A stretch of 64,000 nucleotides of DNA, from NCBI RefSeq assembly GCF_002002885.1, contig NZ_CP019510.1:5456001-5520000 (forward strand), given 5' to 3'. The notes below the pieces were generated by a model. The model had not been told where the DNA came from and ran no database searches. It was given only the letters and a program-made list of their open reading frames with translations. Origin of the DNA: Janthinobacterium sp. LM6. GTDB taxonomy: Bacteria > Pseudomonadota > Gammaproteobacteria > Burkholderiales > Burkholderiaceae_D. The translations under genes and the position numbers were made by a program. Positions within the stretch are counted from its first letter, which is position 1; every line of letters starts with the position of its first letter. Shown here piece by piece: positions 17,688 to 17,969 of the stretch.

Positions 17688-17969
17688 TTGACAGACCATA
17701 CGCAGAAGGCCATGCCAGGCCCGCCCACCGACCTCGAGTCGACGATCAGCCATCTGCTGCGCTTGCGCGACACGCTGGTCACCACCGCGCAGACCCTGCG
17801 CGACATGCACTTTGAACAGAACACGCCGGCGCGCCGCGCCGCGCTGGAAGACACCAGCATGCTGCTGGACAAACTGTCGCGCATGTATAGCGTGCCACCG
17901 GTTCAACAACAACAACAACAACAACAACAACAACAACAACAACAACAACAACAAGGAAAAAAACCATGA
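17688..17969 (+). CDS. small helical protein with C-terminal polyglutamine tract
   Basis: I do not recognise this 93-residue protein. Residues 1-72 are predicted helical and amphipathic ([20 protein letters not shown]), possibly a coiled coil. Residues 73-89 are 17 consecutive Gln followed by GKKP. It begins with TTG at 17688, preceded by CAGGAGAA; the nearby ATG at 17683 stops at once. Its stop overlaps the ATG of the downstream chemoreceptor (ATGA), so the two are probably translationally coupled. The Gln tract is pure CAA, unlike the CAG preference of this GC-rich genome. It may be an adaptor for the receptor, but nothing in the sequence proves this. Confidence 0.65.
17904..17954 (+). repeat. 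(CAA)17 trinucleotide repeat
   Basis: Seventeen uninterrupted CAA units encode the Gln tract and end one base before the GGAAAA ribosome site of the chemoreceptor gene. The repeat is pure, so it should be prone to slippage in steps of one codon, which keeps the frame open. Confidence 0.95.

Follow-up and report, generated by a model that had tools for sequence, protein, structure and literature searches.

Why should seventeen identical glutamine codons, of a kind that the genes around them use less often than CAG, stand directly before the ribosome site of a chemoreceptor gene, and does their number matter to that gene? In the window analysed here (the whole 64,000-nucleotide stretch of DNA from Janthinobacterium sp. 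LM6), a (CAA)17 array of 100% purity occupies positions 17904..17954 of the forward strand, and a scan of both strands of the 6,288,464-base single-contig genome returned no second CAA run of seven or more units. A first-pass annotation had described such a polyglutamine-encoding run before the ribosome site of the methyl-accepting chemotaxis protein (MCP) gene, and the sequence bears this out; the span it gave, 17904-17965, takes in the 11 nucleotides (GGAAAAAAACC) that separate the end of the array at 17954 from the MCP ATG at 17966. The preference for CAG stated in the same annotation is seen in the window genes: among 927 Gln codons in the 30 non-overlapping window ORFs of at least 300 aa, 722 are CAG and 205 are CAA, a CAA share of 22%. 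The length of the array lies far above chance: CAA runs grew no longer than three units when the window was simulated 100 times with a first-order Markov model, and every other triplet in the window reaches at most four tandem copies.

The gene that begins behind the array (17966..19783, forward strand) encodes a 605-aa methyl-accepting chemotaxis protein, recognised by its signalling domain (Pfam MCPsignal PF00015, E 1.2e-53, 181.9 bits against a cut-off of 34.6), with a HAMP match that scores 21.4 bits, below the cut-off of 25. Its likely ribosome site, AAGGA at 17953..17957, lies 8 nt 5' of the ATG and borrows its first two bases from the last two of the final CAA; the motif is kept in all three species in which the locus could be aligned. 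As had also been noticed, the MCP ATG (17966-17968) overlaps the TGA (17967-17969) of the small ORF that carries the array, giving an ATGA start/stop overlap (17966..17969), the layout of a coupled gene pair, in 3/3 genomes. Upstream, a PAS-GGDEF-EAL gene (14897..17608, forward strand; domain search, with a dCache_1 match below cut-off) stops 79 nt short of the small ORF; downstream lies a tRNA-Thr(CGT) (19927..20002, reverse strand; RNA search), tRNA being the only RNA family found across the window at gathering scores. A consensus scan of 17500-18100 returned neither promoter nor terminator, and the inverted repeats of 17600-18100 come down to one 12-nt palindrome.

The array is read within a 93-aa ORF (17688..17969, forward strand) that starts with TTG and comprises 72 residues, 17 Gln in the frame of the array and a terminal GKKP before the TGA. 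A likely ribosome site, AGGAG at 17677..17681, lies 6 nt 5' of the TTG and is identical across the three aligned species. In GC content at codon positions 1/2/3 (0.62, 0.46, 0.85 in the window copy), the ORF has the pattern of a coding gene, and its in-frame codon score (0.29, 0.24 and 0.17 for the trio of genomes) is coding-like, inside the range spanned by pieces of real genes (mean 0.28). The small protein gave no match above cut-off in Pfam or NCBIfam. Over residues 2-72 (213 nt), the three genomes differ pairwise at 8, 19 and 23 positions, with dN/dS values of 0.56, 0.85 and 0.57 that are not distinguished from 1 (Fisher test on rounded counts, p 0.32-0.59); the MCP N-terminus gives 0.02, 0.07 and 0.08 for the same three pairs. 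The 71 residues ahead of the Gln run are coding-like yet under weak constraint. Synonymous divergence is lower in the small ORF than in the MCP N-terminus (p 0.10, 0.015 and 0.13 on rounded counts, one of three pairs significant), a hint that the nucleotide sequence itself may matter.

Homologues of the N-terminal part, for which the first-pass annotation had proposed a search, exist, and they are few. Counting the genome from which the window comes, three of the 40 genomes in the genus have the small ORF at full length, and the GTDB contig collection holds it in at least two loci, from the same two relatives, FW305-129 and SUN073. A profile search of 392 family genomes gave E <=0.01 in eight, namely the trio and five weak matches; three of the latter fall within longer open frames (329 to 740 aa), and two (L121 and L124) are short ORFs without a Gln run, 64 and 67 residues long and with 30 and 27% identity. 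These two, from another genus of the family, share RD-[ST]-LV with the leader protein, and the three may possibly form a small protein family that has no name.

The comparison of the trio, which is between species with one genome and thus one allele each, carries most of what can be said about the array. It holds 17 units in the window, 26 in FW305-129 and 23 in SUN073, all pure, so that its length changes between species in whole codons; the MCPs behind it are 99 and 95% identical to that of the window over their first 230 residues (FW305-129 and SUN073, respectively). Repeat expansion in frame-keeping steps of three, as originally suggested, is supported by the three species: reading frame and ATGA overlap are unbroken in 3/3 despite the differing lengths. 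All 66 Gln codons of the three arrays are CAA and none is CAG. Over the shared array length, 1.9, 4.5 and 7.5 substitutions would be expected pairwise and none is observed, with P(0) of 0.15, 0.011 and 0.0006 for pairs that are not independent of one another. That 66 units remain uninterrupted beside a diverging flank supports a process of homogenisation acting at the nucleotide level.

The other early proposal, that the repeat yields unstructured mRNA at the MCP start, is borne out as a prediction. From -30 to +20 of the MCP start, the three genomes have predicted folding energies of -1.4, -2.1 and -2.1 kcal/mol, and 36 window starts picked by a simple ribosome-site rule have a predicted median of -10.45 kcal/mol and a 95th percentile of -1.7. 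The array itself is predicted to be unpaired at 0.96-0.97 and the ribosome site plus start at 62-71%, compared with 43-54% for the whole 350-nt piece. The leader at the MCP start is therefore predicted to be open.

These features can be joined in a reading to which we give about an even chance, namely that of a slippage-expanded, frame-keeping CAA leader that holds the MCP start open, with an effect on MCP output that we infer. A short CAA-rich leader beside the MCP ribosome site would have grown, presumably by slippage, into a long, unstable and pure CAA microsatellite; the ancestral run would have been short, short alleles not having been found at this locus. Units of three nucleotides leave both the small ORF and its ATGA junction with the MCP gene intact, so that a change of length cannot switch the MCP gene off by frame. 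Such a change would extend or shorten the unstructured mRNA just ahead of the MCP ribosome site, together with the Gln tail of a weakly constrained leader peptide, and its effect would most likely be graded: the array would offer 30S subunits an exposed place to land, and coupling from the small ORF would bring in further ribosomes.

TMV omega itself contains CAA repeats. A plant CYSTM 5' UTR, a CAA-containing translational leader that was examined alongside omega, raised output about five-fold in E. coli (PMC13205671); like the window array, it places a CAA-containing stretch 5' of a start codon, but it has three CAA only and is not known as length-variable, such leaders are of plant or viral origin, and the authors describe the link to the CAA motif as correlative. 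Counting against the leader model is a eukaryotic test in which CAA repeats placed in poorly translated mRNAs brought no gain in translation (PMC9670960). The closest known analogue is Helicobacter pylori tlpB, where a length-variable simple repeat likewise lies in the leader of a chemoreceptor gene; there the sRNA RepG mediates a gradual control of expression that depends on how long the G-repeat is (PMC8295292). The graded rather than on/off output demonstrated there is what we propose for the CAA locus; the tlpB repeat, however, is mononucleotide, untranslated and an sRNA target, whereas the CAA repeat is a translated trinucleotide. The best trinucleotide analogue is the (GAA)n of Mycoplasma gallisepticum vlhA promoters, whose number varies among strains and which lies next to expression signals; it precedes the transcription start by about 40 nt, unlike the CAA array inside an ORF and at a ribosome site, and vlhA promoters are considered active only at 12 GAA repeats (PMC6258824). 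None of the matches listed among open-licence papers named Janthinobacterium, which does not show that its CAA arrays have escaped publication.

Bacterial simple-repeat contingency loci resemble the CAA locus in having a long, pure repeat prone to length change, and the array is pure, above chance length and different in number between genomes, here between species. Contingency loci, however, are usually read as frame-shift switches, and a unit of three cannot shift the frame and gives no on/off state; with frame and ATGA kept in 3/3, a classical phase-variation locus was set aside. A trinucleotide that sits on a ribosome site and is unable to shift frame would instead amount to a natural dose control for a sensor, an idea that the three natural alleles make directly testable.

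The explanation that presses hardest on the expanded leader is a neutral microsatellite, in which CAA runs above a threshold length expand anywhere in the family and this one sits in a tolerant leader ORF, leaving the receptor unaffected. We consider this a serious possibility, if one that falls somewhat short of even, and it explains nearly as much as the leader model. It draws on arrays in unrelated contexts and frames: CAA arrays of eight or more units number at least 17 in at least 15 of 392 family genomes (9 to 26 units; the search pattern requires a non-A base before the array, which makes genus and family counts lower bounds). When the pattern was reversed, which amounts to the repeat in a different phase and gives no independent control, it matched in 11/392 family genomes, seven of them beyond the 15 and one in the genus; the genus match, in genome G018, points to a further CAA-type array there. 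Flank codon scores and open frames assign the 17 long arrays partly to Gln, Asn or Thr frames and partly to non-coding DNA, with the assignment weak for several and the Thr frame coming from L046 only. In L045, L057 and L046, runs of 21, 25 and 19 CAA are apparently read as Asn (the first two) and Thr (the third), with strong flank scores in L045 only; in L058 (G364), (CAA)11 right after an ATG gives an N-terminal Gln run to a frame that resembles an FAD-dependent dehydrogenase by eye. As we read them, most of the 17 arrays lie away from start codons, which means that the position of the present one at the MCP start may be chance. The weak constraint on the leader peptide fits neutrality as well.

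A second locus bears on the same question. In SUN073 (L042:1502-1573), a non-coding (CAA)24 is flanked by a GTAGACT motif on one side and by the start region of a HisKA_3 histidine kinase gene on the other. The best 25 of 30 fetched orthologous loci were read, and 23 remained readable after two without the flanking motif were dropped; the longest CAA run is two units in 14, three in one, four in seven and 24 in SUN073. The SUN073 kinase leader is thus expanded over its short-run relatives. The expansion process looks to be one that acts on DNA, because 24 units face 2-4 in a non-coding leader and because arrays occur in several frames and in non-coding DNA. This locus also favours neutrality, but it holds a point on the other side: a long array is present in 3/3 genomes with the MCP locus, against 1/23 readable genomes at the kinase. 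The lower synonymous divergence of the small ORF, significant in one of three pairs, likewise speaks against neutrality.

The pattern CAACAACAACAAGGA-N4..10-ATG, a CAA4-GGA-ATG layout, occurs in 8/392 family genomes and its reverse gave one match; the pattern itself contains ribosome site and ATG and so favours gene starts by design, and its reversed form controls for base make-up only. All eight matches precede open frames. Three belong to the MCP trio and two to TonB genes that look orthologous, and the others are a phage integrase, a UPF0093 gene and one ORF without a Pfam match that resembles a lipoprotein by eye. Several genes of the family are therefore preceded by a CAA-rich leader next to a ribosome site, a layout of which the MCP array may be an enlarged form. 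The same observation cuts the other way, in that four-unit leaders already stand before other genes and 17-26 units may therefore add nothing. At L159 / L055 (G378), (CAA)12 is followed by GGAAAATATTTC-ATG before the phage integrase, in the order of array, ribosome site and start seen in the window.

If the expanded leader does act on the receptor, it could be one case of a frame-preserving translational rheostat, in which expandable CAA leaders of the Oxalobacteraceae, beside ribosome sites or in 5' leaders, would vary sensor levels in small increments without an off state; the sensors would be this chemoreceptor and the histidine kinase of the second locus. We think this generalisation unlikely. 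Even if the arrays are neutral, CAA arrays in these GC-rich genomes outgrow the CAG arrays of the same genus: in cross-genome scans that covered CAA, CAG and GAA, measured genus CAA arrays have 17, 23, 24 and 26 units, CAG arrays of seven or more units occur in 4/40 genomes with 8, 11, 8 and 12 units, and GAA arrays of seven or more had no match in the 40 genomes in either pattern direction. They would then offer a bacterial system for the study of triplet expansion, which includes the kinase locus with 24 units against 2-4 in relatives.

A third explanation holds that the Gln tail is itself selected, polyglutamine on a small helical protein acting with or on the receptor. The frame is open and ends in G-K/R-KP in 3/3 genomes, the GC pattern is that of a coding gene, and the structure model (mean pLDDT 67.9; three-row alignment) predicts helices at residues 16-44 and 47-67, with the Gln run as a low-confidence helix. 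Against these stand dN/dS values that cannot be told apart from 1, the lack of polyglutamine in the distant look-alikes, and codon choice: a Gln run selected as protein could be spelled in mixed codons, and 66/66 are CAA where window genes, preferring CAG, use it for 22%. Arrays elsewhere, moreover, are apparently read as Asn or Thr or lie in non-coding DNA, and selection for the tail as such is not supported. We consider this explanation quite unlikely, and an ordinary polyQ protein was set aside as the main reading because of codon purity and weak constraint.

A programmed -1 frameshift at the A7 past the array could fuse the small protein to the MCP, which lies in the -1 frame, at the window's GGA-AAA-AAA before the stop; the other two genomes read GGA-AGA-AAA and do not keep the slippery run, and this highly improbable candidate was discarded because A7 is not conserved. 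Repeats are error-prone in general, but an assembly error in repeat length is a negligible prospect for arrays of 51-78 nt, which should fall below common read lengths, and given that three separate assemblies agree in placing a long and pure array here.

The segment carrying the array is itself sparsely distributed. MCPs at E 1e-60 or better occur in 65/392 family genomes, and the closest outside the trio is 69% identical; its genome has no small-ORF match and about 390 nt read upstream of it are without a CAA run. About 480 nt read ahead of the 54% MCP paralogue 50 kb away likewise contain no CAA run. The locus adjoins tRNA-Thr and fbp. Among 38 matching genus genomes, 30 fbp neighbourhoods were fetched, 27 of them outside the trio, and none of these 27 matches the GGDEF-EAL protein, the small ORF or the first 235 residues of the MCP; the open frames beside fbp vary between genomes, and a clean empty site was not found in the 27 loci. 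The MCP locus looks like an accessory segment, because the 27 loci lack a match and their open frames differ. In SUN073 (L059:1258-3025), the MCP frame has no stop as far back as an ATG on the far side of the array, which this frame reads as ACA (Thr); in the window, a TAG precedes the array in that frame. Differing open frames beside fbp / tRNA-Thr are seen in the window at 19800-20118 and in L061-L090, possibly marking an insertion hot spot, and L090 holds a frame that resembles a tyrosine integrase by eye.
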